From a virus: a stretch of DNA of 34,846 bases. Of the stretch, positions 1,984 through 30,418 are shown piece by piece; position 1 is the first letter of the stretch, and each line of letters opens with the position of its first letter. Location of the stretch: the IMG/VR virus record IMGVR_UViG_3300040801_000993, positions 1-34,846 of that record; one strand, written 5' to 3'. The position numbers and the translations under genes were made by a program. Below the pieces are notes generated by a model. That model saw only the letters and a program-made list of their open reading frames with translations. It was not told the DNA's origin and ran no database searches.

Positions 1984-2158
1984 GGATGCGCTCGACATGG
2001 CCCTCACCGAGCTGGAGGATGTGGATGGCAGCGATGCTATCGAGCCAGTACGGGACGCCATCGAGCTTATCGACGAGTTGCTAGACGACGACTACGGAGA
2101 ATACGAAGAAGATGAGTATGAAGACCTTAAGCAAACGACTTCTGAACTACGTTTCTAA
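1940..2158 (+). CDS. Small highly acidic protein (unknown)
   Basis: A 72-residue protein with about 25 Asp/Glu against 5 Lys/Arg. Residues 1-50 look like two amphipathic helices, and residues 48-62 are an acidic run (LLDDDYGEYEEDEYED). A TTG at 1919 is in frame, but ATG 1940 has an AGGAG site 8 bases upstream and is preferred. It overlaps the kinase gene by 44 bases and the exonuclease gene by 47 bases, both in other frames. No family was recognised. Such acidic phage proteins sometimes mimic DNA or bind a host protein, but this is only a possibility. Confidence 0.6.
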   Translation: MDELTCGRAALLAIRDALDMALTELEDVDGSDAIEPVRDAIELIDELLDDDYGEYEEDEYEDLKQTTSELRF

Positions 2159-4701: not shown

Positions 4702-4995
4702 CTAGTTCCTCTTCATAGACAGGACATTGGGGGCCATAGCTGCCTGCGCCGGTGTGGCAACACCCGCCTGCTCATTAGGTTTGTTGCGTAAGAAGTTTTG
4801 GTAGGCCGTGCCTTGGTCCTGCCTAGGTTTGTTGTTGGCCCTGAAGTTCTGGCTACCGGCCACTGCGTTGGCGGCCTGCCCGTATGCGTTGTAGTCCAGC
4901 CCCGGAGTGTTACGACGGTTGTCCGACTGCTTGCCGAGGAACTTCTGGAACTCTCCACGCATACGTGGGTCCCTAAAGAATGAGTTGTTATTCAT
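4702..4995 (-). CDS. Small Asn/Gln-rich protein (unknown)
   Basis: A 97-residue polar protein rich in Asn, Gln, Arg and Ala, starting MNNNSFFRDPRMRGEF and probably largely disordered. Its ATG overlaps the end of the giant protein gene by 8 bases and its stop is two bases from the next ATG, so it is part of the same transcript. No family was recognised. A short linker or cofactor of the giant protein would fit the position, but this is inference. Confidence 0.6.
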   Translation of the reverse strand: MNNNSFFRDPRMRGEFQKFLGKQSDNRRNTPGLDYNAYGQAANAVAGSQNFRANNKPRQDQGTAYQNFLRNKPNEQAGVATPAQAAMAPNVLSMKRN

Positions 4996-7900
4996 AGTAC
5001 GTAAGCTTCTCCTCGCCAGCCTCTATAATGGCACGCTGATACCACGCAAATAGCTGGTCCATCCTCTCTTCTTTATCAGGCATATTGACAAACCGCTGGT
5101 TCTTTTGGAACATGCTTTCCCACCTATCGCGCACACGCTTAAGTGCTGGCGGGTGATATGTTCCTTCGTGTATCTCTCCTAAGTTGAACCCGGCCACGTT
5201 CATATCTACGAAGCCTTCCTTCAAAGCCGCGATAAGGTCAGAGTCTTCCTGACCTAAGCGGCCCCCGCCTACTCGTAACGTCTCGAATACATCCCTGAAC
5301 GCCTCTCGCCTGTAGTAGTTGTACACATCGAAGCTGTGCTTGAACTCCTCGTAGCTCTCAGCCCCGCCATACACTAGGCCCTTGAGCATGATGTCCTCCT
5401 TGTTGCCGAGAGCGCTCATCCTGCTCTTGACCATAGGAACCCAGTCATCTTTGATGTTATACTGGGTCTGCTTAAGGCCTGCAACGTGGCTCAGGGCACG
5501 CACTACCGTCTCCGTCCAGTCCCGCTCTCCGGGGCTAAGCTTCTCTTGTTCGGCAAACTCAATCAGGTAGTCCCTAAGCTGGGTAGCCTGCGCCACCACC
5601 TCAGGCAGGAACACTGACTCCAGCGCAGCTCCAGCCCCGGCAGCAGACCACTTCTCAAACCAGTTGCTATCCTCGTCAGCAATGAAATCCTGAACACGGT
5701 CAGCCCACTTCTCCAAGAGACGGTCGTCATCAAGACTTTCAGTATCAGGCGTTCTGTTTAGCCGCTCATTAAACGTGCTGAACAGAACCTCGTCTTGTGT
5801 GAACGGGCTGGACAACGTGTTCCACACAGCCTTTGCGCTGGCCGTCATGACCGACTCTTCCCCAGAGTTTATAGCATCCCGCAACCTAGCCACTGCTTCT
5901 CGGAGCGAGTTCTGCCACGCGCCCGTAGGGTCTAGGTAATCAAGGGACATCATAGTCCACTCGCCCAGCTCTTGATTAACATTGCTGATAACAGCCATGC
6001 TATCTTCTGCCCACCAAGGCTTGAGCATGCGGTCTTCTTTCTGCTGCTCCAGATCGCCGAGACGAGCCATGGCGTTACCCTCTAACAAACCGGGAGCCTC
6101 GTCGTCGTCACCAGCAAACAGAGCAGCCATCCCACCAGCGGCGATAGCTTGCGTAGCAGCCGAGGTAGCCGTCCACATGGCAGTTAAACCGGACAGCTTG
6201 ACACTGGCAAGGGCCAGAGCTTTAGCCCGGCCGCTGCTGCTAAGCTTGGTACCGTCAAGCATGGTGCCAGTAGCGAAGCCGTGCATCAAGGAAGCAGAAT
6301 AACCAACAGTGTTGGCGGAAGTCCTGATGATCTCGTAGCTAAACGACGGGAAAGCTCCGAGCACCGGGGAACGAGACACAGCCTTAGTAAGGCGAGACGT
6401 GTTAGAGAACGTGGGGTAGGTGTTGCTCACCACGTTGGCTGCCCAGTCTAGCGCCTTGGTTACGGCTGCGCTCTCGGCCTCTGTCATCTTGTTGCCGTTG
6501 AGCCACTTATCCAACAGCTTGTGCTTACTGCCTGTCAACTCTAGGTAGTTGGCCGCTTCCATAAGGAAGCCTGTTGCCTTGACCGATTCGTCCTCCAGAC
6601 GGAACAGCTCGTCGGCTATGTACTTAGCACGCTTGACGCCCATCCCAAGGAAGTGTGCTGCCTTGGTAGGCGAGAAGCTAAGGGAGTTGAGGCTCTGCAC
6701 GTAGGTGTTGGCACCGGTGGTGCCCATCGTATTCTTCAGCACGTCGTACAAAGCACCAGCTCTGCCGCCGTCAAAGTACAGACCGCGCAGAGTCATGGCC
6801 TCCTCTAGCCTGCGGACATCATCCCGCTTTCCGTACTCTACTCGGGCTTCCCAGCCACTACCAAAAGAAGCAACGATCTGATCGAACGTGGACAGTAGCC
6901 CAAGCTTCCTAGCCCTGCCCATACCAAACCCCAGAGCGTTGTTCTTCCAGTGGATGATACGAGTAGACACTACGTTACGCGCATGCGCCAGCGGGCTAGC
7001 GACGATCTTCTGGTACTTGGTTATCGCCGACGCCCACAGCGTCGTGCTCACGATCTTACCTACCAGCTTGCCGGGATCGCCCTTAACATCAGCGCCGAAC
7101 GCGTCGGCTACCCATTCCGCTACGTAAGGATCGACCCGGATCTGGCTGCCAGTAATGAACTGCTTGCTGCCCGGAATGTGTAACGTGGCATCGCCAAGCG
7201 CGGTACCAACAGCAGCCATAGGCTGCCAAGAACCCTGCTCGCTTACCTCGCCTCGTCCCACGCGTGCCCAGCCGCCAGCCTGACCCAGCGACAGCGCGTG
7301 GGTAAGGAACGCTGAAGAGAACGTAGTCTTAGCCAGCTGCTCAACCGTTCGAGCCGCCAGCGTCTCCGTGTCTGTGATCTCGTTCAAGGCATCGCGCATG
7401 CCTTTGTTAAAGGCAACGTACGACCCTGCCCGCTTAACGTCCTCGCTAGACAGCCCCAGATCTACCGTAGCTTTCTTGAAGAACTGGGAGACCGTCATGG
7501 AGTCGATCATCGTGGCGTTGTCTTTCATGTACTTGGCAACTAGACTACGCTTTTCCTTGGACACGCTTGACAGGATGTACTTCATCGAGTCGTGGATCAG
7601 CTCAGCGTTTGACTTAAGCAAGTTACGCTGCTGCTGGATAGAGCGAGCAGCGCCAAGACCCCGCCCAGCATTACCCAAGCTCTCTAAACCACTAAGCATG
7701 TCGGAAGCCATACCCTCTACGGCACCCTCAAAGTCCTTGGGTAGCGGGAGGGTAGCTTTCACTGCGTCCCGCAGAGAATCGGTGAACGCTGCCAAAGACT
7801 CCTCGTCGCTAAACATCTCTTGTATCTGTTTAACCGAGGGCTTGCCGTTTACACCAGTACCCAGATCAATAACCTTGCCACCTCCGTTGAACTGAAGCAC

Positions 7901-10900
7901 GTTGCTTGCCGTGCTCCACTCACTACTGGTGTCGTCGTTCTTGGCTGGCGCTATGTACCGGCTCCACAAGCCGTGCGTATCATTGCGTAGCAGGTTTACC
8001 AAGCTGTTCAATCCCAGCTTGTCCACCTGTTCTGGAGTGGTAGGCACGTTCCACACGTCACGAGCACGCTTCGCCAGCTTCGGAAGATGCTTCTTCAGCA
8101 GTACTTCCTTAGTCTTTTCAGTCTGTCCCACTGTCTTGGACAGGTAAGGACGGCCGTTGATGATTGCACCGCGAACGTTCTCGCCTCGCCATGCACCATA
8201 CTCGTCGCCCAACATACCCAGATCTTTCACGTAGGACTTGAACATGTTGAGGTGCTTCATAGCAGCTGAGCTAATGTCCACTCCGTATGTAGCGCGTACG
8301 TTAGACGCACTAACACCCTCAAGGTAGGCATTAACAGCCTCTTCCCACGTCTTGTCTAGCCTGCGCCACCCGTTCTTTTTAAGCTCCCGACGAGCCAGCA
8401 CCCACTCGGCACGAGACAAGTTGATGGCCCGCTGTATGTTGCCGAGCATCTTCTTGTGCTCGGCCACCAATGCCCGCTTAGTCTTAGCTGCAAACTTAGC
8501 CTCCTTGCTGTAGAGAAACGGTATCCTGACCAGCGGGTTGTACAACCCTGCATACTTGGACTGCACCAAGTACTTGAGAACTTTGGGGGCACTCGCTGCC
8601 CTGCCCAACCAAGCTATAGGATTGTTCGATAGCAGGGAGTTAGCAAACAGTGTCTGCTTGACTGGGTTGGCGTCATTAAGATTGAGTACGGCCGTGTTGC
8701 TGGAGATGAGTCCGCGATTCATGCGGCCCTTCGGGGCCTTGCCGATGTTATCGTCGGACTGACCCGGAGGCAAGAAGGACTGGCGATACTCCTTAGAGTT
8801 AGCCAGCTCCACCACTCCGTCCAGTATGTCTTTCCTTACCAGCTCTATGAAGGTAGGATCTTCCATAAACGGACGGTTAACAGCAACCGCACCATCCCAC
8901 CACGGCAGGTTGTAGACGATCTCTTCAGCCATCTCCTTGGATTCAGGAGACAGCCTCTTCTGCTCTATTACTTCCTCTACCTTACGCCACGTGCCGTCTG
9001 GAGCCTGCTCGTACTCAGACGTGGGGGGCTTGCCCTCACGCAAGGCTTCGATTCTCGCACGCTCTGCGTCAGCTTCCTCTTTCGTTACACCAAGAACACG
9101 CGCCTTGTCTCGGGCCACCATGATGCGGTAGGCCTCGTACTGGATAGCGTTTTCCTCGCTGTCATTATTAAGCCACGCGTCCTTAAGCTGTTGCTCCTCG
9201 ACCTCCAGCGCACGGCGCAGTACCTCAGCTTCCTGCTCAAGCCGCGCTCTTTCCATTACGTTCTCGGCCACTTGCCCAGCAGTCTTGGCGGTCTTACCCT
9301 TGGCTACCTGTGCGATAGTGCGCAGGCGAGCAAGTTTCTTTATCCTAGCGACGGCCTCCGGGGACATAGCCAGCTCGCCCTTAGCCATCTCCTCGGCCAA
9401 GAACTTATTAATCGCCTCAATGTACGCCCGCTCTTCCGCGCCCTTGGCCCAGTCTTCTTCTAACCACTGCTCGACCTTTTCCTTTGTCAAGCTGACGGAG
9501 GACTCTAGCGCGGCATCCAACTCCTCGTTAGTAGGCACGCGAGCGGCTGGAGTAGGCCTGTCCCGCTCGGTCAGTTGCTCTTCAGGCGTAGCAGTTACCC
9601 TATTGTAACGGATATCCTGTGCCGTCAGGTACCGGTCGATGGTCTCCATGAGAGCTGGCCGTACCTCGTTGGTCACTGCATCCAGAACCTTCAGGTCCAG
9701 CTCGCCCTGCTCGCTTTCCTCAGCCTCCTTAATAATCTTACCTGCGTCAGTCCCACGGTAGGTGCGGTACAGCTCTTCAGCCAGAGGGGCTATGTGCTCC
9801 CGCTCTACCTTGGGGTTGTGCATAACAATGTAGTTAGCAATTACTTGTGAAGACTTGAGGACCTCAGATATCGGGTCGCCGCTATTAAGCATGCGATCTA
9901 CAATAGCAGAGGTTAGCATACGTTGACGCTGCCCCCTCGGCGTGAACTGGATCATCTCTCCGCGCTCAAGCACCGAACTTCCGCTAGTGCTATCCCTGCG
10001 TACTCGCTCTCCCAACCACTCCTGAAATACTTCCGGCGTTACCGAGGAGTCGACCTTTAGTCCAGCCTTGCTAAGCTGTAGCTTCGTTTCACGCAGCATC
10101 TCTTTAGCGAACTGCTCCGGTGCCATCTTGAAGGCCTCTACCCAGAGAGGGCTGTCCTCAAGTATGTTATCCAGTACAGTAGCGTATTGGGAGTTGCCTG
10201 TGTTCTCAAACACCAGATCAAGCCTATCCATGATCCTCTGCTTGAGGAGAGCTTTGGCAGCTTGTGCTTCGTACAAGCTATCCAAGTACTGCTCACGACG
10301 AATGACCTCACCCTCTACCACAGGGGCATAGCGCCCGCCAATGATGATAAGAGTGAGCGCGTTCAGCTCTTGTTTGGTCGGCTCCTTACCGAACACCCGG
10401 CGGCGCTCCTGAAGGATGCGCCCTGCAATATCCCTAGCTTTCTTTGCGCCAACTCCCTCTGCCTCACGCAGCATACGCTGTCTTTTGTTGTACCAAGTCC
10501 ACAGTTCCCCGACAGTCAGTGGGTCTTTACGGCTGTCCCTGACTAGCGGCAGTGCGTCGGCCGGAACCACGGCCTCGGTGACGCTGTTAAGGTCCTGCTT
10601 AAATGTAAGGGGCCTAGTCAGCCTGTCGCTGAGTACGGCCTTATCAAAGCGACTAACAAAGTCGTCGGCAGCGATAGCCTTTTCGACCTCGGCCGCCGTC
10701 TTACCGATGACTTGCCGGTCACGGGTGTTGTTGCGGGGCCAAGCAATCCACACGCCGGATTCCTTAGCAGCGTAGAACTCGCGTCCATCCTTAACAAAGG
10801 TACGGGTGTACGTGTTAGTCGGCGTGTCGTCAGCCAGCTTAACGCGCATCTCCTCTTCCTTGCGGGTAAGCAACTGCTCGCCCCGATCACGTCGAGGTTT

Positions 10901-13900
10901 GGTGGGGAGCGTGAGGTTAGGATCTGTGAACTCGCCCAGCGGCTCTCCTCTATCCTTGCCCAGCTCCAGTTCTCCCTGCGGGCCGCGCTCTACTATGGTG
11001 CCCCAGTCGTACCCCCTGCGCAGTCCCTCACGTACGCCCTCCATAAGGCCCACGCCTCGTGGGTCTATCCCCTTGGACACCACGCCCATGAGGGTTTCGA
11101 GGTTCCTAGCTACGGGTATGGCTTGATCAGAGGGAATGCCCTTGGGCCACAACATCCACAGTGGGGGAGTATTCTCATCAGGCTTACGCTTCTCTGCGTA
11201 GAACTCGGTGCCCTCGATGATGAGTTCGCGTATAGGCTTACCGCCCTCTGGAGACATCTCGTCGGCTACGCGTACGGTATCAGTAAGCTCCGTTCCAGCC
11301 GAGATAGTTCCTGTGGCAGCAGCCACATCCTCGACGGCGGCTGCCCACTCGTCTACCTTCTTCTCTTCCTTGGGCTTTTTGGCAGGTTTAGCAGGCTTGT
11401 CGTCCTCGTCTATCTTACGCTGCCGAGCGTCGATCTCTTTTTCCTGCTCACGCAGGGCGTTCTGTCGGGCCAGAACCTCCTCTGCCTTAGCCTCCGCCTT
11501 CTTTTCGTCGCTTAGTTTGGCCTTTTGCCTAGCACGCAGAACACCAAACTTCTTGTCAATAGTTTTTCCGGGAAGAGACTCGAACAGGCCTCGCACATCC
11601 TTGACGATCCTAGCCTTGAAGGACCCTATGTACTTGTCGTTGATTAGCTTGCGGTCGTTGATCTCCACGATAAACATATCGTAGCCATTCAACTCCTCGT
11701 TGAGTCTGGCTCGGATTACACGCACGTCCCCCTCGGGGGTAAGCTGGTACGCCCGACCCTCGGGCACGCGCCCGAAGCGCAAGTCGTCTAGGACCTGCCG
11801 GTCTATGATGGTCTGTACCTTAGCGTCCCCGTCCTCCAGCAGGGGTTTAACCTGCGGGAAGTCTACTGGGTTCTCTATGCTTTCTTCGATAACCCCCAGC
11901 GCACGCTCAGTCTCTTTGCGTCGCTCTATCTTGAACTGTTCGATGAACTCTGCTTCGTTCTCTTCGGTACGCAGATGGGTTTGGTTGCGCGTATCGTAAC
12001 GGAACTGACGAGCGGCCTCCTGCTCAATCGCCCGGTCAGCCAAGGCGGAGTCCCGTACCCCAGCGAAGATAGCTAGGTTGTTCTTCTCGGCAGCCTGCAC
12101 ATCCTTAAGCAGGATGTCAGGATTACCGTACCTACGCGCAGACTGAGCGGTAGTGTTAATCTCTTCCAGCTGGGTCTGGCCAAACCCGTAGTTGTTTTCC
12201 GTGGTGCCCTTACTCTTGGCCGTAAACTTGGCGTGGTTGATGGTGCCGTCCGCGTTGCGGAGCATGGAGTGACGCCAGTTGTACTCAGCCGTGTCTGCTC
12301 CCTTGCTGTCAGGACGTGGCTTGTAGTACGGGCGCGGCAGGGACTGGCCCGGACGCCACGTATAGTGCACTATGCCTGTGGGAGTTATGTAGTCTACCCA
12401 GATACGGTTACTGTACGGGTCGTATCCAGTAACTTCGTACCTGTCTCTCTTGCCCTTGCCAAGAGACTTGAGGTTGTCTGTAGTGGCCCACCTAGCCCAC
12501 GTTCTGGTGTCCTCGTTCTTAAGACCCTCCAGCTCTATGTCCCGCTGCACCTTAGCAGCGAAGGCGTCAGGGTCTACGGCCCCTTCATTGCCCTGTTGTA
12601 CTAGGGTCTCCGCATAATCAGAGTAGTCTTGCATCTCATCAAGGGAGAGGCTAGAGGGGTCGCCAGACGTACGACGAGCAAACGGCAGCTTAGCCCACAT
12701 CTCATCTTCCTGAGCGCGAACTTCGTCAAGCCTGTTGTTAAAGGCCTCCCACTCAGCCTGTTGTTCTGGAGACAGGTTAGCAGCAACAGAGTTAGCGTCT
12801 ATCCACTCACGACTGTCTCTAGTCCTAGTGGCCGGGTCTGCCCAGCGATCTATCAAACGCTCCGTGGTAGCCGGGTCTGGCTGTGCAGGGTACTGCGTGG
12901 TCTGGGGGGCAGGCTCTTGTTCCACGGGGGCCTGCTCCGGTACTGGAGGCATGTTGAGCCACGACTCGGCCGGTGCCGTAGTCGGTTCAGTAGTCTGGCC
13001 CGGCTGGTTGATGCCTGCCGTGCCGCCGTCTATGTCTAGTCCGCCGGTCTCACCGTCTGGCAAGGCTTGTCCGCGCTTACCCGGCTGGCCTAGGTACAGG
13101 CCGCCAGCTTCCTGCGGGACATCGAGTGGTATTGTTTGGTTCTGCTGATTGGGGTCTAAGGCCTCTGCCGCACGAGCCGCGTACCACTGCTCACGCTCAG
13201 CCATAGCCTGCTCAGCAGCAGTGCGTTGGCGTTCTGCCTTACGGGCACCGGGAACATTGGCCGTAGCGATACCCTTACCTAACAGGTAACCTACAGCGCC
13301 TGCGTGCAGTACGCGCTTACCAATAGCCCCCCAGTCGGCATTGCCTGCCCTATCTGCTAGTGTGAGCAAGTAGCCCCACGGATTGGTTACTGTACCATAA
13401 GCGTCCTTTGCTTCACCAGCATCCTTAAAGGCCTCCTCACCCCGCAAGAGTTCTTCCATAAGGGTGGTGGTCTCGGTACCAATCTCCGAAGCCGCCTCGC
13501 GCAGACTAGTCTTAATCACGTCGCCAACAGTAGTGGCTCCTAGGGCCTTGTCCCACACGCCGAAGACTTTTTCCCAACCCAGCTCGTGTGCAACAGCGGT
13601 CCACGATCTAACCATCGCGTCTTCGTTGGACAGCCCCTGAGCTTTGGCCTCCTCATACTTACCGCCAAACACGGGCAGGCCCATCATGGCCAGCGCTGCG
13701 TTGGGATTACGTGCATACATACCGACAGCAATAGAGGGCAACATAATGCCGAGTGCCGTACCAGAGTCGTATAAAAGACCGCCTGCCCAGTTATCAGGCC
13801 GCCCCTTCTGGGCGGCTGCTAAGTCCTCTTCAGACAGTGACCGCATAGACTCCTTGAAGCCATCTAGGTCCAACCCCTCAAACAGAGGGGGAGTCTCTTC

Positions 13901-14284
13901 GGTAGGCCGCAAGGTCTCGTCCCGCTTAAAGGAATCCCACAAGCCGGTCAGGCCTGCTGCGATGTTGGACCTGCCAAAGCGTTGGTGAGCCTGTTCCTGC
14001 GTAGCATAGTCGTCGGCCTTATCTTGCGCTGCCTGCATAGTACCAGCCGCGCCGATAGCAAGCCCCCCACGAACACCGCGAAGTGCTCCCTCTACCGTCC
14101 CCACCTCCGGCCCGGTGTCGTAGTCCATGCCATGCTTGCCGATCAGGTACTCTAGGATCTCTTCGTCGGTAACGCCATCAGCCATAGCAGCGGAATAATT
14201 GAAGCCGTGCTTTTCTGACAGGTACGCGTTAATCTCGCTAGGAGTAGCGCCGTCAGCCAAGGCTGCTTGCCAATCAAATGCCAT
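4988..14284 (-). CDS. Giant (3098-residue) internal virion / ejection-type protein
   Basis: One uninterrupted frame of 3098 codons, last large gene of the virion block, in the place where podoviruses keep internal or ejected proteins. Residues 3-54 are two tandem copies of a 26-residue motif with core AALADG/AAMADG...EI..YL..KHG. Residues 170-240 hold a Gly/Ala-rich hydrophobic stretch (TALGIMLPSIAVGMY, then GGKYEEAKAQG) often seen in giant phage proteins. Residues 380-470 are a Pro/Gln-rich linker, 915-990 a charged coiled coil, and about 1017-1072 and 1158-1206 are a duplicated motif. Around residues 2620-2740 is SPVLGAFPSFSYEIIRTSANT followed by a hydrophobic stretch, resembling the C-terminal region of large polyvalent phage proteins (LPD38-like, from memory). 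The likely job is crossing the host envelope with the DNA. No RNA polymerase or lysozyme motif was convincing. Confidence 0.75.
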   Translation of the reverse strand: MAFDWQAALADGATPSEINAYLSEKHGFNYSAAMADGVTDEEILEYLIGKHGMDYDTGPEVGTVEGALRGVRGGLAIGAAGTMQAAQDKADDYATQEQAHQRFGRSNIAAGLTGLWDSFKRDETLRPTEETPPLFEGLDLDGFKESMRSLSEEDLAAAQKGRPDNWAGGLLYDSGTALGIMLPSIAVGMYARNPNAALAMMGLPVFGGKYEEAKAQGLSNEDAMVRSWTAVAHELGWEKVFGVWDKALGATTVGDVIKTSLREAASEIGTETTTLMEELLRGEEAFKDAGEAKDAYGTVTNPWGYLLTLADRAGNADWGAIGKRVLHAGAVGYLLGKGIATANVPGARKAERQRTAAEQAMAEREQWYAARAAEALDPNQQNQTIPLDVPQEAGGLYLGQPGKRGQALPDGETGGLDIDGGTAGINQPGQTTEPTTAPAESWLNMPPVPEQAPVEQEPAPQTTQYPAQPDPATTERLIDRWADPATRTRDSREWIDANSVAANLSPEQQAEWEAFNNRLDEVRAQEDEMWAKLPFARRTSGDPSSLSLDEMQDYSDYAETLVQQGNEGAVDPDAFAAKVQRDIELEGLKNEDTRTWARWATTDNLKSLGKGKRDRYEVTGYDPYSNRIWVDYITPTGIVHYTWRPGQSLPRPYYKPRPDSKGADTAEYNWRHSMLRNADGTINHAKFTAKSKGTTENNYGFGQTQLEEINTTAQSARRYGNPDILLKDVQAAEKNNLAIFAGVRDSALADRAIEQEAARQFRYDTRNQTHLRTEENEAEFIEQFKIERRKETERALGVIEESIENPVDFPQVKPLLEDGDAKVQTIIDRQVLDDLRFGRVPEGRAYQLTPEGDVRVIRARLNEELNGYDMFIVEINDRKLINDKYIGSFKARIVKDVRGLFESLPGKTIDKKFGVLRARQKAKLSDEKKAEAKAEEVLARQNALREQEKEIDARQRKIDEDDKPAKPAKKPKEEKKVDEWAAAVEDVAAATGTISAGTELTDTVRVADEMSPEGGKPIRELIIEGTEFYAEKRKPDENTPPLWMLWPKGIPSDQAIPVARNLETLMGVVSKGIDPRGVGLMEGVREGLRRGYDWGTIVERGPQGELELGKDRGEPLGEFTDPNLTLPTKPRRDRGEQLLTRKEEEMRVKLADDTPTNTYTRTFVKDGREFYAAKESGVWIAWPRNNTRDRQVIGKTAAEVEKAIAADDFVSRFDKAVLSDRLTRPLTFKQDLNSVTEAVVPADALPLVRDSRKDPLTVGELWTWYNKRQRMLREAEGVGAKKARDIAGRILQERRRVFGKEPTKQELNALTLIIIGGRYAPVVEGEVIRREQYLDSLYEAQAAKALLKQRIMDRLDLVFENTGNSQYATVLDNILEDSPLWVEAFKMAPEQFAKEMLRETKLQLSKAGLKVDSSVTPEVFQEWLGERVRRDSTSGSSVLERGEMIQFTPRGQRQRMLTSAIVDRMLNSGDPISEVLKSSQVIANYIVMHNPKVEREHIAPLAEELYRTYRGTDAGKIIKEAEESEQGELDLKVLDAVTNEVRPALMETIDRYLTAQDIRYNRVTATPEEQLTERDRPTPAARVPTNEELDAALESSVSLTKEKVEQWLEEDWAKGAEERAYIEAINKFLAEEMAKGELAMSPEAVARIKKLARLRTIAQVAKGKTAKTAGQVAENVMERARLEQEAEVLRRALEVEEQQLKDAWLNNDSEENAIQYEAYRIMVARDKARVLGVTKEEADAERARIEALREGKPPTSEYEQAPDGTWRKVEEVIEQKRLSPESKEMAEEIVYNLPWWDGAVAVNRPFMEDPTFIELVRKDILDGVVELANSKEYRQSFLPPGQSDDNIGKAPKGRMNRGLISSNTAVLNLNDANPVKQTLFANSLLSNNPIAWLGRAASAPKVLKYLVQSKYAGLYNPLVRIPFLYSKEAKFAAKTKRALVAEHKKMLGNIQRAINLSRAEWVLARRELKKNGWRRLDKTWEEAVNAYLEGVSASNVRATYGVDISSAAMKHLNMFKSYVKDLGMLGDEYGAWRGENVRGAIINGRPYLSKTVGQTEKTKEVLLKKHLPKLAKRARDVWNVPTTPEQVDKLGLNSLVNLLRNDTHGLWSRYIAPAKNDDTSSEWSTASNVLQFNGGGKVIDLGTGVNGKPSVKQIQEMFSDEESLAAFTDSLRDAVKATLPLPKDFEGAVEGMASDMLSGLESLGNAGRGLGAARSIQQQRNLLKSNAELIHDSMKYILSSVSKEKRSLVAKYMKDNATMIDSMTVSQFFKKATVDLGLSSEDVKRAGSYVAFNKGMRDALNEITDTETLAARTVEQLAKTTFSSAFLTHALSLGQAGGWARVGRGEVSEQGSWQPMAAVGTALGDATLHIPGSKQFITGSQIRVDPYVAEWVADAFGADVKGDPGKLVGKIVSTTLWASAITKYQKIVASPLAHARNVVSTRIIHWKNNALGFGMGRARKLGLLSTFDQIVASFGSGWEARVEYGKRDDVRRLEEAMTLRGLYFDGGRAGALYDVLKNTMGTTGANTYVQSLNSLSFSPTKAAHFLGMGVKRAKYIADELFRLEDESVKATGFLMEAANYLELTGSKHKLLDKWLNGNKMTEAESAAVTKALDWAANVVSNTYPTFSNTSRLTKAVSRSPVLGAFPSFSYEIIRTSANTVGYSASLMHGFATGTMLDGTKLSSSGRAKALALASVKLSGLTAMWTATSAATQAIAAGGMAALFAGDDDEAPGLLEGNAMARLGDLEQQKEDRMLKPWWAEDSMAVISNVNQELGEWTMMSLDYLDPTGAWQNSLREAVARLRDAINSGEESVMTASAKAVWNTLSSPFTQDEVLFSTFNERLNRTPDTESLDDDRLLEKWADRVQDFIADEDSNWFEKWSAAGAGAALESVFLPEVVAQATQLRDYLIEFAEQEKLSPGERDWTETVVRALSHVAGLKQTQYNIKDDWVPMVKSRMSALGNKEDIMLKGLVYGGAESYEEFKHSFDVYNYYRREAFRDVFETLRVGGGRLGQEDSDLIAALKEGFVDMNVAGFNLGEIHEGTYHPPALKRVRDRWESMFQKNQRFVNMPDKEERMDQLFAWYQRAIIEAGEEKLTYYE
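10667..11236 (-). repeat. Duplicated ~50-residue motif in the giant protein
   Basis: Two segments, about residues 1017-1072 and 1158-1206, share the pattern (I/F)-(I/V)-x-(E/D)-G-x-E-F-Y-A-x-K-x...W-(M/I)-x-W-P followed by a helix with ETL or EVEKAI. Roughly 85 residues separate them. The conserved EFYA and W-x-x-WP positions suggest a small beta-rich domain present twice. It was found by eye and a profile comparison has not been done. Confidence 0.55.
14123..14278 (-). repeat. Tandem 26-residue N-terminal repeat in the giant protein
   Basis: Residues 3-28 and 29-54 of the giant protein align without large gaps: (F/N)-(D)-(W/Y)-x-A-A-(L/M)-A-D-G-x-T-x-x-E-I-x-x-Y-L-x-x-K-H-G. The DNA copies have diverged, so this is an old duplication preserved at protein level. 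Such short helical repeats could be a docking tag at the N-terminus of an internal virion protein. Confidence 0.7.
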
Positions 14285-18230: not shown

Positions 18231-21200
18231 CTATGGGTCAGAGCCATCCCACGTCGGGGAGGTCTCGTCAAAGGTGATGTCTGTCTGGTCGAAGGTCCAG
18301 ATGTCTGGGGCTAGGGTGACGGTACCGGTGTTGCCAGCCGCCGTTGCGGTGGCGGTAGTGCCATTGAATACCATGTTCATAGTAACCGTACCAGTGTTGC
18401 CTGTGGCAACGGCCGTTCCAGTGGCCCCAACCACCAGAATATCCTCGGGTACGATGCCCTCATCCACCGCGTAATCCCTGTCCTCGTCTATCCGGTTGCG
18501 GCGATCAGCCTTAACCTCGGCGTGGAACAGGAGATTGTTGATGCGGGTAGGTACAGCACCGTCGCCTCCAAATTTGGACAGCCGTATAGCCAGTCCATCG
18601 GTACGGGTGTTTATATACCACGTCATGTAATCATCCACCAGCGTGCCGGGGAAGTCGCTGAACTCTCCTACCGTGGTGGTGTTACCGATGCACGTGTCAG
18701 GATTGTCCGGGTCTGGTACCTCGGTGAACTTGTCGTAGTTCTTACCGGACAGGTGGTTCAGGCGGGTGTAGCCCGCGTGCTCTAGGTACAGCTCCAGACT
18801 TTTGTAGTCCACCAAGGCGGACGGGTCTGGTGCGTGGAGCGGGTTGAAGTCCAAGTACTTGAAGAACTTCCAAGTGGACAAGGTGTCTCTCCGCTCCGGC
18901 TGGTCCGTACGCTTGTCGGCGTACGACAGCACGTCCATGTACTTCGGGTCGATGCGCATCACATGACCCAGCTGAGTACCCATCACAATGCTTTCGTCTC
19001 CGTTGGACAGGACCGAAGAGTCGATTGCCGTGGGTGCGAACGTGGCCTCGTAGCCACGCTGCCCGCCCTCTTGGTACGCCGTGTAGTTCTGGCGGGTAAA
19101 CTGCAAGGGCTGTGAGGGGTCATCAGGGAAGGTCGCTACGATGATCTCCCCATTAGCTAAGTATACTCGATATTGGTTCTTTTTGCGAACCGGAATAGCA
19201 GCTACAATGCGGTTACCGGCAATGATATCAAGAGCATTGCTACCAAGCAAACGGCGAAGTAGCGTACGTATGTGCGCCGAGCGTCGTCCAATTTCAAACC
19301 CTCCGAATTTGTCCGAGATGTCTGCCGTAGTGATACCTGCGTAGTCCACGAACACGTTACCCAGCAGGTTGGTGATCGTGTAGGGCAGGGCACCGCTATT
19401 GTCGGTGACGATCTTCAGGTTGAACGGGTCCTGCCCAGAGGCTGCGCTACCAGCGAAGCCGTGTATGGAGTCCTCGCACACCACCATAGTGGTGCCGTTG
19501 GCAGCAGCCGCTAGTCCAGTGATGGTATCCTTCGGGTTCCACGAAGTGGCCCCGTCATACGTGTTGAAGTTGTTCGGTGCCCCGATAGAGGACGCCATGA
19601 AGTGTGTGTTTAGGGCCAGCAGCAGGTGGTTCCTGTGGAACTCTACGTACCTAGGCTTGTCCTTATCCCTGTCAATCGGTAGGCGGATAAAGGAGAACCT
19701 GTCATCCTTGTCCAGCATGAAGGCCGGACTGGCACCAGTAGCGGCGTACAAAGTAGCCGCATCGTCGTCGCCAGAGAAGGTGGCAACCCGAGATTGGTAG
19801 ATGGCGTTGGCCGACTCCATCTCTTCGGTGCTGGGGAGCAGGTTCTTGCTGACGGTACGCGTGTACGCGATCAGGTCACCGGTACCACCAGCACCCGTAC
19901 GTATCTCTAGGCCCGGAATAATCAAGGAAGCTGAGGGGGAACCGGTAGGTAGCTGTATCGTCATCCACCCTTCGGCGTCGTCAGTGCTCCAGTCTCCGTC
20001 GAACACTTGATAAGCGTACAAAAAGGCCTCGTTAACGTCTCCAGACCCATCGTAGAAGTAAACCTGCTGGCCGGTGACTGCATAATGGACCTTAACCAAT
20101 ACCTCGTCCACGTTTACGACTTTGGACGCCCCAGAGACGTCCTCAAACTGTATGTCGACGTAGTAATTGTCGTCCTGTAGCACGTCGGGGTCGATTACGT
20201 CCAGCTCCCACGTGTCCAACTGGCCTCCGTACACGTATTGGGTGCCCGGAGTGTTGGTCAGGAAGTCCCTGTCGCCTCTGTTGGAGGACAGGTACTGGCC
20301 CGAGCCGCTTTCGTTGCGCAACTGGACCTTGTTGATGACAACGTGGCTGCCTGCTGTGGTGCAGTGGGCCGTAACCCGCACTTCCAGACCCAAAACCTTG
20401 TAGTTGCCGGGTATTTGGGACCCGTTAATCTGCAAAGACATGAATCGGGACTTGTCGTTGGCCAGTACGGTAGTAGAAGCGTACGAACCGGGGGTACCAG
20501 ACGTCACATTGCCCAGATTTGTCCACGCAGAGTACGTTCCGGTGGTCGGATACTGGGTAGCGGGGCTAAAGAAGTCGATAAATCCAGTATCAGTGACGGA
20601 ATCTACTGCATCTGACGTGATAAGAGGGGCGTTGGCGGCCTTGGGGGCCACCTTGCCAGCCCTAAAGGACAGCGAATAGCCCAGATCTACGTACTTCCAA
20701 CCGCCTTGGCGGTCGTTTACGTCTCTTTTCCAGAGCAATCCCTTATTTTGGTACTGACGATTGCCGTCTGCAAGAGTGCTGCCAAGAGTGTTCCCAGTAG
20801 TATTGTTCGTGATCGTCGTGCTAACGTCCCAATTATCGACATAAGACATCTCCAGTGTGGTGCTGGACGACGGATACAGGTACAGATAGCCCTCTGCATC
20901 GCCTCCCTCCCAGCTACCGTCGGTTAATTCGTACCCAGCAACCAGCGCAGTAAAGGTTCCGTCTGCCGAGCCGTAGTCAACCTCTACCTCGTCGCCGATA
21001 GACGGCTCTTCAGCGCCGTCCTCGAAGCGTCCGCCGAAGAAATCCCGCACCGCGTACGTAGAATCGCGGTACTGGAACACCCCGGAGATGCCCTGTACCC
21101 CCAAGGGGTCGGGCTTGAACTGGTCCCACGTAGCGTCTGCTTCGCGCTGTGCGGTAGACAGCGCTCCAAGAAAGCGGGGACCCTTGTAATCTGCCCAAGA

Positions 21201-21683
21201 CAGGCCCAGCCTGCTCTGGTAGATGAAGAAGTCCGAGCTTCCGGTGTATTGAATGGTGGCCCCGTTGCTGGTGTAGAACGACGTGGCCCGTCGCGGAGAG
21301 ATACCAGCCACCTTGTCCAGCGTGATGTACAGCGTGGACACGCCGATCTCCACGTAGTACATACGCCCGGACCCAGCTACGGTTACGCCGTCGTTGGCAT
21401 ACCAGTAGAGCAGGTCTCCCTGCACCAGCGTACCTGTGGTGATACAGTCGGATACGTCTACGGCCGCGTGCCAGAAATCATCCAGTCCCTCCGACAGGGT
21501 GGGTCCGACGATAGTCAGGCCCTGCGATTCCTCGTATGCGCCGTTTACAACTTCCCAGTTGCGCACGCCAGTAAGCGACCCAACCGGAGCGGTCAACCTT
21601 GAGGGGTTGAGCCACAGCCCTTGGCCTGCTGGGATGCTTAGAGGACCGGGGTCCTTAAATGCTTCGACAAGCGTTACTGGCAT
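18231..21683 (-). CDS. Large tail protein (nozzle / tail-tube B-like)
   Basis: A 1150-residue, Thr/Ser/Gly/Tyr-rich, beta-strand-rich protein starting TAATG-coupled to the adaptor gene (one-base overlap). The first 650 residues contain a series of Trp- and Gly-rich beta domains. Residues about 690-900 (RFSFIRLPIDRDKDKPRYVEF, then HLLLALN and MVVCEDSIHGF) read like the propeller-type core of podoviral nozzle proteins, which form the distal part of the short tail. The C-terminal 65 residues contain two near-repeats. Assignment rests on gene order (directly after the adaptor), size and composition; it is larger than T7 gp12 (about 790), so extra decoration domains are likely. Confidence 0.6.
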   Translation of the reverse strand: MPVTLVEAFKDPGPLSIPAGQGLWLNPSRLTAPVGSLTGVRNWEVVNGAYEESQGLTIVGPTLSEGLDDFWHAAVDVSDCITTGTLVQGDLLYWYANDGVTVAGSGRMYYVEIGVSTLYITLDKVAGISPRRATSFYTSNGATIQYTGSSDFFIYQSRLGLSWADYKGPRFLGALSTAQREADATWDQFKPDPLGVQGISGVFQYRDSTYAVRDFFGGRFEDGAEEPSIGDEVEVDYGSADGTFTALVAGYELTDGSWEGGDAEGYLYLYPSSSTTLEMSYVDNWDVSTTITNNTTGNTLGSTLADGNRQYQNKGLLWKRDVNDRQGGWKYVDLGYSLSFRAGKVAPKAANAPLITSDAVDSVTDTGFIDFFSPATQYPTTGTYSAWTNLGNVTSGTPGSYASTTVLANDKSRFMSLQINGSQIPGNYKVLGLEVRVTAHCTTAGSHVVINKVQLRNESGSGQYLSSNRGDRDFLTNTPGTQYVYGGQLDTWELDVIDPDVLQDDNYYVDIQFEDVSGASKVVNVDEVLVKVHYAVTGQQVYFYDGSGDVNEAFLYAYQVFDGDWSTDDAEGWMTIQLPTGSPSASLIIPGLEIRTGAGGTGDLIAYTRTVSKNLLPSTEEMESANAIYQSRVATFSGDDDAATLYAATGASPAFMLDKDDRFSFIRLPIDRDKDKPRYVEFHRNHLLLALNTHFMASSIGAPNNFNTYDGATSWNPKDTITGLAAAANGTTMVVCEDSIHGFAGSAASGQDPFNLKIVTDNSGALPYTITNLLGNVFVDYAGITTADISDKFGGFEIGRRSAHIRTLLRRLLGSNALDIIAGNRIVAAIPVRKKNQYRVYLANGEIIVATFPDDPSQPLQFTRQNYTAYQEGGQRGYEATFAPTAIDSSVLSNGDESIVMGTQLGHVMRIDPKYMDVLSYADKRTDQPERRDTLSTWKFFKYLDFNPLHAPDPSALVDYKSLELYLEHAGYTRLNHLSGKNYDKFTEVPDPDNPDTCIGNTTTVGEFSDFPGTLVDDYMTWYINTRTDGLAIRLSKFGGDGAVPTRINNLLFHAEVKADRRNRIDEDRDYAVDEGIVPEDILVVGATGTAVATGNTGTVTMNMVFNGTTATATAAGNTGTVTLAPDIWTFDQTDITFDETSPTWDGSDP
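18316..18427 (-). repeat. Imperfect ~46-bp tandem repeat at the 3' end of the large tail gene
   Basis: Segments 18316-18362 and 18382-18427 share GGTACCGGTGTTGCC-like and GT-GC-rich blocks. The encoded pattern is T-A-x-A-(T/A)-x-G-N-T-G-T-V-T, once as TAVATGNTGTVT and once as TATATAAGNTGTVT. This looks like a short beta-hairpin unit duplicated near the C-terminus. Confidence 0.6.
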
Positions 21684-26191: not shown

Positions 26192-28450
26192 TTAGATACC
26201 CGTCCCGTATTCTTCTTTAACCTGAATCTCCCGCTCCATCTGAGCGAAGTCGATCTCCTTGAGCTGTAGCTTCATCTGCTGCTCCATGTCCTTGAGCTGG
26301 AGCTGCTTCTGCAAGTCGGCTACACTAAGTTCTTTTTCGAGAGCCATCTTGGCGAGACCAAGCTGGTACTGTAGTGCTGCCTCGTTCTGTCGGGCCTGTG
26401 CCTCGGCAACGAAGCTCTGGTACCTAGCCTGCGCCTCAACAGCGGCCTGTTCCTGCTTAGCGTTCTGTGCCTGTGCATTAGCTCGTGCCTCCTCCATGCG
26501 AGCGTTAGCGGTGATGAGCGCGGCCTGTGCCTTGATGGCTTCTGGATCTTGCTGCTCCTGTGCTGCCTGCTGAGCCTGCTGCTGAAGCTGGGCAACCTCT
26601 TCCTCGCTGCGCAGCAAGTCTCCGGTGCGCGTGTTGTCCACGAGCGCCCGGAAGGCTTTACCCGGATCAATGTGCATCATGAACTCTTCGTTGGAGCCAG
26701 CCAGACCCAGCATCCGCTCGATCTCCTGTGCCCGGATCTGGGCCTCGATGCGCTCGGTAGCGCCACCGACTTCGATCTCGTAATCGCCCTTGATGGAGTC
26801 GTCTTCCCCGTGCTGCATTTCGTAGTGGTAGAAGCGATTCACCAGCGGCTTGGTAACGTAGTCGTCCCAGTTCATGCTGGCGGCCTTCTGCATGATGTTC
26901 GTTGCCGACATCACCATAGCCAGTCCGGTAGTGGTGTTGTTACCGGAGGGCATCTCCCCCTGCTGCATCAGCGGGGTGGAGGACTCCACGTCAGCGAACT
27001 GCATGGCAGTGTCGATGATCTGCGCAATCCCTTCCATCTGGGCCGGGATGTTGACAAACTGCATGGCCTCGCTGACGTTAGCGCCGTACTCGGTCAGGAA
27101 CCAGACCTTCATCGGCTCGATGCCATAGTCCTCGTCCCGCGTAGCGGGTTCGATCATTTCCTTGTTGAGTACGATCTGCGGACCCGATGTAAGGCTGGCG
27201 TTATCCAGCAGCATCAGGTACGCGTTGTTGACTGTGCGTTGCGCGTCACGCAACAGGAAGGGCACGCCGTGACCGAACACTGAGTTCGGGTCCTTCTCGT
27301 ATACGGCCACGCTGTAAGGCAGGCCGTCTTCTCCGTCGATGTGCGAAAAGCTGATACGGATAATGGTCTTGTTGACGTACCACACCTCGCCCGTCGGGCG
27401 GAACAGGTTGTCTTCCAAGTCCTCTTCGGTGATCATGCCCGCCTCGAACAGGACGTGCTTGTCCAGCGGACCGTGGTACTCGCGTACCCAGTAGCGGTTG
27501 TTGACCGCGTTGTTGGACTTCTCCCGAGACGTGCGCTGCACGATGTCGGGGATGTCGCTGGTGTCTGGCTCGGTGTCTAAGGCTCTGGAGATCTGCCCTG
27601 CCATGAAGGCGGGGTTCTTGGCCAGCTCGATGAGGTCCTTACGGCTCATCGGGTGCAGCTCAAAGCTGTCGTTGATTTCATCAGGGAGCCGGGCAGAGGG
27701 GTCGGGGAAGAACAGGAGCGGATCTACGCGCTCTACGCTAGGCTCTGGTACAAACACCTCTCGAAGTTCCTGTATGGGACGTCCGTCAGACGTAATTGCG
27801 CCCTCGTACCGACGGTACTTCTTGTCCTGAATGGTGGGTCCTTTAATTACCACCGTTCCTTTTACGCACAGGTCTTCGATACCTAATCGAGCCTTCTTGC
27901 CGTAGTTAGCCGCAATCATACGGCTCCTGAGCTGGCGCTCCATAGCGGGACAACGGGTCTCGTTCGCGGTCTGGATGGACTGTACCATCTCCTTCGGCGA
28001 CGGAACCTGATCGGTGGGCATCCCCACCTCCGCTGCTTGCAGTTGCATAGCCCCTGTAGGCTCTGTCTGCTTAAGCGCCTCCCTCTGCTCCGGCGTTAAA
28101 TCGGCCGGGCGCAGATAGAAATTAAAGTCCCCGCCCGTCGGGAACTGAATGTCCTTCATGCGGGCGATGGCGACGTTGGTCTTAGGTCTAGTGATGTTTA
28201 CTGAGATGGGGTCGTTGGAGCTACCGCCCATCGACAGGGCGTACTCGACCTTCTTCAGATCGTCGTTGTCCCACTCCCCCTCGTACTGCTTGATAGCCCG
28301 CTCCCACTCCCGCTCTTTGTCGTACCTAGCGGATTTGTAGTCGTGGAACTTGCGGCACATGGAGGCACCCATGGCTACCAGCATGGCGTCTAGTTTCTTA
28401 CCCTCATCCGTCTTGAGATCGGGGGCGTCGAAGTGTTGGCTAAGGATCAT
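26192..28450 (-). CDS. Portal protein
   Basis: From ATG 28450 the product has 752 residues; TTG 28498 would add 16 residues but would overlap the terminase gene by 47 bases. The N-terminal half (SARYDKEREWERAIKQYEG, NITRPKTNVAIARMKDIQFP, FFPDPSARLPDEINDSFEL) is typical of large podoviral portal proteins, which form the dodecameric DNA gate at one capsid vertex. The middle includes EDGLPYSVAVYEKDPNSVFGHGVPFLLRDAQRTVNNAYLMLLDNA, a recognisable portal core. Residues about 610-740 are a long Gln/Ala-rich coiled coil, the expected C-terminal barrel region. Gene order terminase-portal-scaffold-capsid supports the call. Confidence 0.85.
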   Translation of the reverse strand: MILSQHFDAPDLKTDEGKKLDAMLVAMGASMCRKFHDYKSARYDKEREWERAIKQYEGEWDNDDLKKVEYALSMGGSSNDPISVNITRPKTNVAIARMKDIQFPTGGDFNFYLRPADLTPEQREALKQTEPTGAMQLQAAEVGMPTDQVPSPKEMVQSIQTANETRCPAMERQLRSRMIAANYGKKARLGIEDLCVKGTVVIKGPTIQDKKYRRYEGAITSDGRPIQELREVFVPEPSVERVDPLLFFPDPSARLPDEINDSFELHPMSRKDLIELAKNPAFMAGQISRALDTEPDTSDIPDIVQRTSREKSNNAVNNRYWVREYHGPLDKHVLFEAGMITEEDLEDNLFRPTGEVWYVNKTIIRISFSHIDGEDGLPYSVAVYEKDPNSVFGHGVPFLLRDAQRTVNNAYLMLLDNASLTSGPQIVLNKEMIEPATRDEDYGIEPMKVWFLTEYGANVSEAMQFVNIPAQMEGIAQIIDTAMQFADVESSTPLMQQGEMPSGNNTTTGLAMVMSATNIMQKAASMNWDDYVTKPLVNRFYHYEMQHGEDDSIKGDYEIEVGGATERIEAQIRAQEIERMLGLAGSNEEFMMHIDPGKAFRALVDNTRTGDLLRSEEEVAQLQQQAQQAAQEQQDPEAIKAQAALITANARMEEARANAQAQNAKQEQAAVEAQARYQSFVAEAQARQNEAALQYQLGLAKMALEKELSVADLQKQLQLKDMEQQMKLQLKEIDFAQMEREIQVKEEYGTGI

Positions 28451-28451
28451 A

Positions 28452-29174
28452 TTAGAAGTACCTTCTTCCGCCAGCGTTGCGTACCTGCTTGACAACAATA
28501 GGCTTAGCGATCTTGATTCCCGTCATAACGTAGTAACGCAGGGCGTCCATGTAGTGGTCGTTTTCCTTTACTATCCGTCCCAACTCGTCTCGCCGATAGA
28601 GCCTGTATTCGTCGAAGATGTCGGTAAGGTGCTTTGCTATCTTCAGCCGTCCTGTTGACAGGCGGCTGTACACTTCTTGGATGCCCGCCTCGCGGGCGTT
28701 GTCCGCCGGTACTAGCCGGAGGCCCTCTTTTCGGTACAGCTCAAGGAGCTTTCTTCCGTCTGATTGTCCGCTTGCTCTTGCTGCCGGGTCGACGGTTCCG
28801 GGGAGGGTGAATTTATTGGGATACCTCTTGCGAACAGCAGCTGCATGAACCTCTGGTTCTGCTTGTCCTCGCTTGTATCCGTCGTAGATGTAGGCGATGT
28901 CGTGGTCGGGGTCGTAGGCACCGAACACAATCGCGGTTGAGTTCCAACCCACATCCATTCCATACGAGCGTCGGAACCACGCGGGGATTTCCATGATGTC
29001 ATACTGAATCTCCTCCTCCGGGATCGGGTAGATTGCGCCGGAACCCAGACTTGGTATTCCCTTCGAGCGGCTATCGCGGAGGTGCGGGGGCGTACCAGCC
29101 AGCATCTCCTTCTTTGCTTCTTCGGTCAGGTGGGGGACGTCATCCCACCCTGCCATGACTACGCTCTTGCTCAT
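28452..29174 (-). CDS. terL: Terminase large subunit, nuclease half (separate gene)
   Basis: A 240-residue protein with only the C-terminal RNase H-like nuclease of a packaging terminase. GMDVGWN (D74) is the first acidic position, TVDPAARASGQSDG (D129) the second, and ENDHYMDALRYY (D206/D210) the last, with the usual spacing. The N-terminus WDDVPHLTEEAKKEML and RSKGIPSLGSGAIYP is the linker normally found between the ATPase and nuclease domains of a single protein. The gene starts with an ATGA overlap with the ATPase gene upstream, so the two products (245 + 240 residues) together equal one ordinary large terminase. It cuts concatemeric DNA at the start and end of packaging. Confidence 0.85.
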   Translation of the reverse strand: MSKSVVMAGWDDVPHLTEEAKKEMLAGTPPHLRDSRSKGIPSLGSGAIYPIPEEEIQYDIMEIPAWFRRSYGMDVGWNSTAIVFGAYDPDHDIAYIYDGYKRGQAEPEVHAAAVRKRYPNKFTLPGTVDPAARASGQSDGRKLLELYRKEGLRLVPADNAREAGIQEVYSRLSTGRLKIAKHLTDIFDEYRLYRRDELGRIVKENDHYMDALRYYVMTGIKIAKPIVVKQVRNAGGRRYF

Positions 29175-29908
29175 ATCCTCATTCCCTCTTCCATAGACTG
29201 GCGGTGCGCGTCCTTAAGGAAGTCCTGAATAAACATCGTCATGCCTGAGAGGGGAGTGAAGGTTACGTACACGACCCCGTTGGTCGTCATAGTACGCAAT
29301 AGACACTCGTTGTACACGTCCTGCGGACACTCCTCGTCAAGCCAAATGACGTCTTTACCAGTACCTTGGAATGAGCGCCTTCCTTGGTCGTACGACTTGA
29401 ACCCTACGATACTTTCCCCACCAGATACGTGCTTTACTCGCACGGTATCGAACGCGTCGGGGATACCTGCTCTGCGGCGCACCTGAGTTATCAGGCGGCC
29501 CGGAACCATTCCAGATCCCAGCACCCCGGTAGGATATCCAAACAGTACATCTTGGATAATGTCTCGGGTCGTCTGGCCTGTGTCGCCAGCCGCCCAACAA
29601 TCTACCGGACGGTCAAATCGTTTCCCGTTCCACCACTCGGGATACATCCCTGTAAGGTGGCAGGTCATCTCAAACCCACCGGCCACCGACTTACCTACTC
29701 GGTTAGCGGCCATGAATAGCCGCTCTCTGTAGTCACCCCCAAGCTCGAAGAACTGCATGTGCTTGGGGTACTTGTCGTGCGAGTAGGGTCCCGACATCGG
29801 GAACCACCGTACCAAGTGGCCTCCCTCTTCTACCCTCCTGACCTGCTCCTCAAGAGCGGCCTTCAGAGTTTCTAGCTCTGCATACGAGAGCTTGGTAGGT
29901 TGTGTCAT
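29171..29908 (-). CDS. terL: Terminase large subunit, ATPase half (separate gene)
   Basis: A 245-residue protein with the packaging motor ATPase only. The P-loop is MAANRVGKS (K73), Walker B with catalytic acid is VIWLDEE (D191-E192), and the coupling motif is YVTFTPLSG (residues 214-222). This domain converts ATP hydrolysis into DNA movement through the portal. The frame ends EGMRI then TGA, and the nuclease half restarts in the -1 frame with ATG sharing the bases ATGA. An AGGAGG site precedes its ATG 29908. The 78-base gap upstream contains two short hairpins. Confidence 0.87.
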   Translation of the reverse strand: MTQPTKLSYAELETLKAALEEQVRRVEEGGHLVRWFPMSGPYSHDKYPKHMQFFELGGDYRERLFMAANRVGKSVAGGFEMTCHLTGMYPEWWNGKRFDRPVDCWAAGDTGQTTRDIIQDVLFGYPTGVLGSGMVPGRLITQVRRRAGIPDAFDTVRVKHVSGGESIVGFKSYDQGRRSFQGTGKDVIWLDEECPQDVYNECLLRTMTTNGVVYVTFTPLSGMTMFIQDFLKDAHRQSMEEGMRI

Positions 29909-29930
29909 ACTTGCCTCCTAGTATGAGCGG

Positions 29931-29967
29931 TGGGCCGAGGGCCTCGGAGGGAGGCACCGTAAAACGG
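29931..29967 (-). promoter_or_regulatory. Two stem-loops in the terminase intergenic gap
   Basis: Within the 78-base gap between the small and large terminase genes the transcript can form CCGU-UUU-ACGG (29957-29967) and CCGAGG-C-CCUCGG (29935-29947), the second ending about 26 bases before the ATPase start codon. Neither is followed by a T-run. They may protect or structure the mRNA ahead of the motor gene; the role is inferred. Confidence 0.4.
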
Positions 29968-29986
29968 CAAGGCCCCCGGCGCACCT

Positions 29987-30418
29987 TTAACCTTGAATGT
30001 TACCAGTCTTAGTCGACCCTTCCAGTTTCGCCGACAGCTCCTTGATCGTGCGGAACAGGTCGTCGTCGTTCAGGTTGCTGAAGTCCAGCCTTGTCATAGA
30101 CTGCTCGGTCTTATCCGACCAACCGAAGTGGTTGCTCATCATGGACTTGTACAGCGCGGTGTTGAACTTCGAATTGTTGAGGTTCTTACGCCCTTGGGTC
30201 TCCCACCAAGCGGCGCTGAATGCCCGGCCGATCTCTACTACCTCGCTGAACTCCCTGTAGTTCGGTGACTCGGTGAGCACCCGCCACATCTCCGGGGTCA
30301 GGTCCAGCTCCCGCATAACCTCTCGGTCAAAGGCACCCTGATCGTACAGGTTAAGGGCCTCACGACGCCAGTCGTGTTCCCGTGCTCCAAGCTTGTCGAG
30401 GATTGCGTTGAGTTCCAT
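29987..30418 (-). CDS. terS: Terminase small subunit
   Basis: A 143-residue helical protein two genes before the portal. The segment WWETQGRKNLNNSKFNTALYKSMMSNHFGWSDKTEQ is characteristic of small terminases of many podoviruses and siphoviruses, where an aromatic-rich helix and FGW-(S/R)-D/E-K end the DNA-binding oligomer domain. The small subunit recognises the packaging start on the phage DNA and recruits the large subunit. The start ATG 30418 overlaps nothing, with the stop of the preceding gene two bases upstream. Confidence 0.78.
   Translation of the reverse strand: MELNAILDKLGAREHDWRREALNLYDQGAFDREVMRELDLTPEMWRVLTESPNYREFSEVVEIGRAFSAAWWETQGRKNLNNSKFNTALYKSMMSNHFGWSDKTEQSMTRLDFSNLNDDDLFRTIKELSAKLEGSTKTGNIQG

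Follow-up and report, generated by a model that had tools for sequence, protein, structure and literature searches.

The terminase locus and its two genes

The window is the whole stretch of DNA analysed, 34,846 nt, corresponding to positions 1 to 34,846 of the IMG/VR record IMGVR_UViG_3300040801_000993; the feature under study lies at 28452-29908. Searches of the window ORFs against PHROG and Pfam gave the minus-strand gene order small terminase (TerS), ATPase, nuclease and portal, with the large terminase (TerL) pair between the TerS and portal genes as in P22-like large terminases (PHROG). The parts of the locus are as follows.

29987..30418, minus strand: small terminase (TerS), upstream neighbour (PHROG 309, 1.4e-6)
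29914..29919, minus strand: Shine-Dalgarno AGGAGG for the ATPase gene (sequence)
29171..29908, minus strand: TerL-A, free-standing packaging ATPase, 245 aa (Pfam Terminase_6N, PHROG 31467, AlphaFold/Foldseek)
29687..29710, minus strand: Walker A, AANRVGKS (N69, R70, G72 and K73 invariant in alignment A1)
29330..29347, minus strand: Walker B and catalytic Glu, IWLDEE (D191, E192 and E193 invariant)
29252..29263, minus strand: coupling motif, TFTP (T216-P219 invariant)
29184..29189, minus strand: SD-like AGAGGG, inside the ATPase gene and upstream of the nuclease start (sequence)
29171..29174, minus strand: ATGA stop/start overlap, the seam (sequence)
28452..29174, minus strand: TerL-N, free-standing RNase H-like packaging nuclease, 240 aa (Pfam Terminase_6C, profile match to 4DKW)
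28953..28955, minus strand: nuclease acidic residue D74 (DVGW), invariant in alignment A2
28788..28790, minus strand: nuclease acidic residue D129 (VDPAA), invariant in A2
28545..28559, minus strand: nuclease acidic residues D206/D210 (DHYMD), invariant in A2
26192..28450, minus strand: portal protein, start codon 1 nt past the nuclease stop (PHROG 332/1216; sequence)

The ATPase ORF (29908..29171) and the nuclease ORF (29174..28452) share the ATGA at 29174..29171, and the nuclease is in the -1 frame, exactly as the first-pass annotation had described. The ATPase half matched Pfam Terminase_6N over residues 64-238 (E=3.7e-20), and the nuclease half matched Terminase_6C (E=7e-10). Walker A, Walker B and the coupling motif, which the annotation had called intact, were all present and near-invariant across homologues (alignment A1). 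The catalytic aspartates that it had noted in the nuclease, D74, D129, D206 and D210, were invariant in the 11 rows of alignment A2, and a profile of the nuclease matched the structure of the P22 nuclease domain, 4DKW, with E=4e-36. The ATPase also matched PHROG 31467 at 4.3e-68, an ATPase-only family annotated 'unknown function'. Because the free-standing ATPase matches a family labelled in this way, terL-based classification will miss or miscount such phages.

The AlphaFold model of the ATPase (pLDDT 88) has a helix and a short tail at its C-terminal end, and matched the D6E TerL ATPase by fold (Foldseek). For comparison with relatives, TerL loci were collected from scans of IMG/VR and GTDB genomes and given L-numbers. 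For a fused relative, L006, the AlphaFold model places the seam in a lower-confidence linker (pLDDT about 75-82) joining the last ATPase helix to the first nuclease strand, which agrees with the proposed break in the interdomain linker. The two products sum to 245+240=485 aa, a normal length, as had been stated, since fused relatives are about 475-510 aa long. Between window relatives pN was 0.14-0.20 in both halves, with synonymous sites near saturation and dN far below dS, and almost every split locus had one ATPase and one nuclease copy.

Each half is intact and under purifying selection, and the two are kept as separate ORFs at the same seam in the window's clade and in many others; the two-part terminase of the first-pass annotation is thereby confirmed as an observation. 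Folds, motifs and gene order make this TerL P22-like, but it lacks one defining feature of that type, the single polypeptide: its two domains are encoded by separate ORFs.

Several other features of the window were recorded. The interval between TerS and ATPase (29909-29986) is GC-rich with partly complementary runs, and a hairpin or packaging site is possible there. On the plus strand, at 618-1983, a 5'-deoxynucleotidase-like gene (PHROG 318, 6e-41) overlaps a deoxynucleotide monophosphate kinase gene (PF21448, 6.9e-19), and a DNA polymerase exonuclease subunit follows at 2112-3122; a role in nucleotide or modified-base metabolism is possible. One minus-strand ORF of 3098 aa (4988-14284) takes up 27% of the window and gave a marginal PHROG virion-protein match and no Pfam match. 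A 1150-aa minus-strand ORF in the structural region (18231-21683) gave no match in Pfam and PHROG searches.

Split loci and the contents of the seam

Both domains were present at 261 loci from the scans, of which 107 were split and 154 fused, some contigs being counted twice. In the non-redundant set (n=160) 71 loci were split and 89 fused, or about 44% split, so that 'uncommon', the word used in the first-pass annotation, is wrong for this TerL family. Split loci made up 35 of 77 in bacterial genomes, and split prophages were present in cultured bacteria including Vibrio galatheae, Azospirillum cavernae, Halomonas, Acidovorax and Sphingomonas (among them Sphingomonas melonis). Lysogens with a split locus include Vibrio galatheae S2757, which carries L137, Halomonas sp. 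McH1-25 with L149 and Sphingomonas melonis AS2.3 with L202. The window falls in a nine-row clade (first tree, support 96) whose eight other rows are all split as well, and the possibility that its relatives all carry a fused gene therefore fails.

Relatives of the window at 70-80% identity had varied junctions. L025, with halves 72/77% identical to those of the window, has the same ATGA; L001, L002 and L051 have TAATG, L027 an 8-nt overlap, and L026 two small genes between the halves (+394 nt). Over the family the distance from ATPase to nuclease ranged from overlap up to 7.5 kb (L108), with some loci at 1-7.5 kb, and ATGA was the junction in 19 of 84 split loci, L025 and L003/L137 included. 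One GenBank record, MW202785 (L048), has the split unremarked, both parts being labelled 'large terminase protein'. The position of the nuclease start relative to its WDD motif was -9 residues in 48 loci, -14 in 21 and elsewhere in 6 (n=93, of which 18 were unmatched by the motif pattern used). Most splits have their seam at one linker site, 9 or 14 residues ahead of WDD.

Some candidate splits were rejected. The named phages PaP3, Bjorn, MJing1, RHph_N3_2 and JB8 all proved to be fused. Escherichia phage vB_EcoP_HC-25922, with terL annotated in two pieces of 1260 and 294 nt, is a different case, with its break inside the nuclease region; the Kuravirus HC-25922 terL in OQ555404.1 (L050, 2197-3739) is annotated as two overlapping ORFs, and an indel in the record is likely. 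The script counted L038 as split, but its ATPase stops short of the coupling motif; the locus resembles a frameshift error and is absent from the second tree. Separately, the fused TerL ORF of L116 (6679-9096), at 806 aa, exceeds its relatives by about 300 aa, possibly through an intein or fusion to a neighbour.

The seam gene of L100 encodes HNH_3 and AP2 domains, those of L148 and L156 HNH, and those of L225 and L279 NUMOD4 and HNH_3, architectures characteristic of phage homing endonucleases, putative in the present loci. The L048 seam holds a 46-aa ORF similar to the AP2 tail encoded by the L100 seam gene; the score of 67 was reached in 0 of 5000 shuffles. An HNH-type homing-endonuclease-like gene or remnant occurred at the seam in four clades, with scar-only or fused sisters. 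The sisters of L100 (support 99) were L151, with ATGA, and the fused L287, which is 61-70% identical to L100/L151; the window itself has no fused close relative. Loci with ATGA likewise grouped with L225/L279 (L270, support 99), with L145/L156 (L207, support 98) and with L148 (L117, L157, L150 and L181, support 99). In two such comparisons, of L148 with its sister L117 and of L145/L156 with L207, the ATGA that starts the nuclease in the sister is where the inserted gene begins, and the nuclease restarts with an ATG downstream.

The break in the window, a 4-nt seam, contains no endonuclease gene, and none was found in the window's clade. No convincing similarity to endonucleases was detected for the seam ORFs of L026, L098, L107, L145 and L235, that of L098 being borderline against the L100 endonuclease (24 of 500 shuffles). 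Most split loci have no endonuclease at the seam, the endonuclease count being biased by the use of seam genes as queries, and much of the cargo is unrelated (tail-fibre-like or unknown genes). Because other loci carry unrelated genes there, the seam also acts as an ordinary gene boundary. The seams of L041, L108, L161, L165, L175 and L227, of 1.8-7.5 kb, hold several small or structural-looking genes. In L257 an HNH/AP2-like endonuclease ORF (8566-9205) lies just downstream of a fused TerL gene.

Origin of the split and alternative explanations

We think it very probable that the locus is a genuine two-gene large terminase, giving two proteins by coupled translation and a two-part motor, through a fission that homing endonucleases plausibly helped to seed. 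The alternative that survives best accepts the two genes as real and differs over their history: the split would be ancestral to large parts of the family, fused genes would be later re-fusions, and endonucleases would merely exploit the boundary. The first tree implied 21 or more changes of the split/fused label, with starred branches forcing 11 of these. The second tree, of 191 family rows and 5 outgroup rows, required at least 26, and 12 once branches below 95 were collapsed. Since at least 21-26 label changes are needed, 11-12 of them forced by strong branches, the split is old but labile. An ancestral split would fit with seam cargo that is mostly not endonucleases. It would also fit with L138 and L141, fused TerLs of Cupriavidus prophages that group with split L159 (support 99); their linker resembles the split class II nuclease start minus its Met, a possible re-fusion. 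Against it, the outgroup TerLs are all fused, there are two distinct seam positions (-9 and -14), and parsimony gave 27 fission events without re-fusion versus 34-38 for re-fusion only, on a weak rooting. LP7, the outgroup row of P22 type, was placed within the tree on a very long branch, and the direction of fission or re-fusion is therefore weakly supported. On balance we regard an ancestral split as rather unlikely.

Much less probable is splicing, in which a group I intron or split intein would join the halves, as in ICP1 terL or Mic1 TerL. Introns and inteins are indeed known in terL (ICP1, IBB_35 and Mic1; PMC10448857, PMC3322345, PMC7156551), and some relatives have endonucleases at the seam. 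Yet Rfam searches of the window and of 14 loci carrying seam inserts found no intron, and seam genes are flanked on both sides by 4-nt overlaps, which leaves no room for an intron. The ATPase stops about 25 residues past the coupling motif, with no intein-sized extension, and Pfam detected no intein domains in the window halves, its matches covering terminase domains only.

Programmed ribosomal frameshifting, which would yield a fused TerL with or without the separate halves, seems equally improbable. It would suit the window, L025, L001 and L051, in which the nuclease lies in the -1 frame with respect to the ATPase. However, as the first-pass annotation had noted, the window has no slippery heptamer (no in-frame X XXY YYZ over the final 150 nt of the ATPase ORF), and frameshifting is impossible where genes lie between the halves. 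L027 and L026, in the same clade as the window, differ in relative frame, and this change within the clade contradicts conserved programmed frameshifting. The varying frame, together with the kilobases separating the halves in other relatives, upholds the earlier preference for coupled reinitiation over frameshifting.

Error in sequencing or assembly, or decay of the gene, whereby a one-base indel had broken a normal fused TerL, is the least credible alternative, refuted for the clade and with a negligible chance of being correct: a small indel near the overlap of this single contig could in principle split one frame, but the split is shared by independent contigs with the same or other junctions, some with whole genes inserted, it occurs at 35/77 bacterial-genome loci, and both halves are under purifying selection.

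A proposed two-protein motor and its relation to known systems

In the two-gene terminase that we favour, a cut at the interdomain linker of a P22-like TerL would have produced two free proteins, the ATPase TerL-A and the nuclease TerL-N. The nuclease would be made by termination-reinitiation or local initiation at the ATGA, from the SD-like site inside the ATPase gene, and such coupled translation would supply the two proteins in coupled amounts. At overlapping junctions SD-like 4-mers precede the nuclease start with a frequency of 50%, versus 25% at random positions in ATPase genes, an enrichment that fits termination-reinitiation or internal initiation. Two polypeptides are the most likely product of the split locus. 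A portal-bound ATPase ring would then pump DNA, and the nuclease would dock non-covalently and cut at the start and end of packaging. At the level of the family, at least some splits may arise or persist through homing-endonuclease genes inserting at the linker ('genes in pieces'), a step not visible in the window, with decay or loss of the endonuclease gene leaving an ATGA scar. Because most splits have no endonuclease and much of the cargo is unrelated, the endonuclease may instead have settled in a boundary that already existed, without having caused the split.

Whether the nuclease domain and hinge contribute to pushing DNA is a point on which models of the packaging motor differ. When the T4 ATPase and nuclease domains are made apart without the hinge, enzymatic activities are kept and DNA translocation is lost (review PMC9958956), so that the mechanism in the split family would have to differ. 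Nature appears, from these gene arrangements, to run in halves a motor that in T4 must stay joined. The P22 nuclease domain, when isolated, is less active or inactive (PMC7617512). The D6E nuclease reaches the ATPase site through a C-terminal arm (PMC5727402), and by analogy an arm of this type is a possible docking route without a hinge. We give an even chance to the fuller proposal that a free ATPase ring translocates while a separate, dissociable nuclease cuts, that the T4-type hinge is dispensable, and that fission recurred at one linker, partly by linker-targeting homing endonucleases. Taken as a whole, the first-pass interpretation is partly supported; the recurrence of the split at one seam and the homing-endonuclease-like genes found there were beyond its view.

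A family with many fissions would provide natural separated motors in cultured lysogens, in which ATPase-nuclease coupling, stoichiometry and docking would be open to direct tests. It also presents an essential gene in which the boundary between domains serves, in addition, as a site where mobile and accessory genes insert. Introns and inteins of terL and enzymes from genes in pieces were already known; in the open-access literature we found no description of TerL as separate ATPase and nuclease genes.

The closest known systems are the P22 gp2-type TerLs (also D6E, P74-26/G20c and Sf6), which share the ATPase and RNase H-like nuclease folds and motifs seen here; the fused-relative model superposes on P22 4DKW at 1.9 A rmsd with 34% identity. 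The P22 gp2-type TerL is one polypeptide, whereas the window TerL is two genes. Friedrich et al., in PNAS in 2007, reportedly described nrdA of Aeromonas phage Aeh1 as 'genes-in-pieces', an essential gene turned into two functional ORFs by insertion of a homing endonuclease. The window TerL halves resemble such pieces, both being intact and under selection. In Aeh1, however, the enzyme is a ribonucleotide reductase and the case a single one, whereas the TerL split affects a packaging motor, recurs at a domain seam and often has no endonuclease. ICP1 also has an interrupted terL, and homing endonucleases in its genome; its terL intron, with a neighbouring T5orf172 endonuclease, is spliced from the RNA to give a single protein, as established by RNA-seq and RT-PCR (PMC10448857), whereas no intron was found in the window TerL. 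The OM43 phages MEP401/402 have a DNA polymerase split into two ORFs with a small unknown ORF between them (PMC10580990), likewise a core phage enzyme in two ORFs, although not a packaging motor. Finally, the packaging ATPase phi29 gp16 translocates with no working nuclease; it keeps a vestigial nuclease domain covalently attached (PMC7672431), whereas the split TerL described here has a separate nuclease gene.
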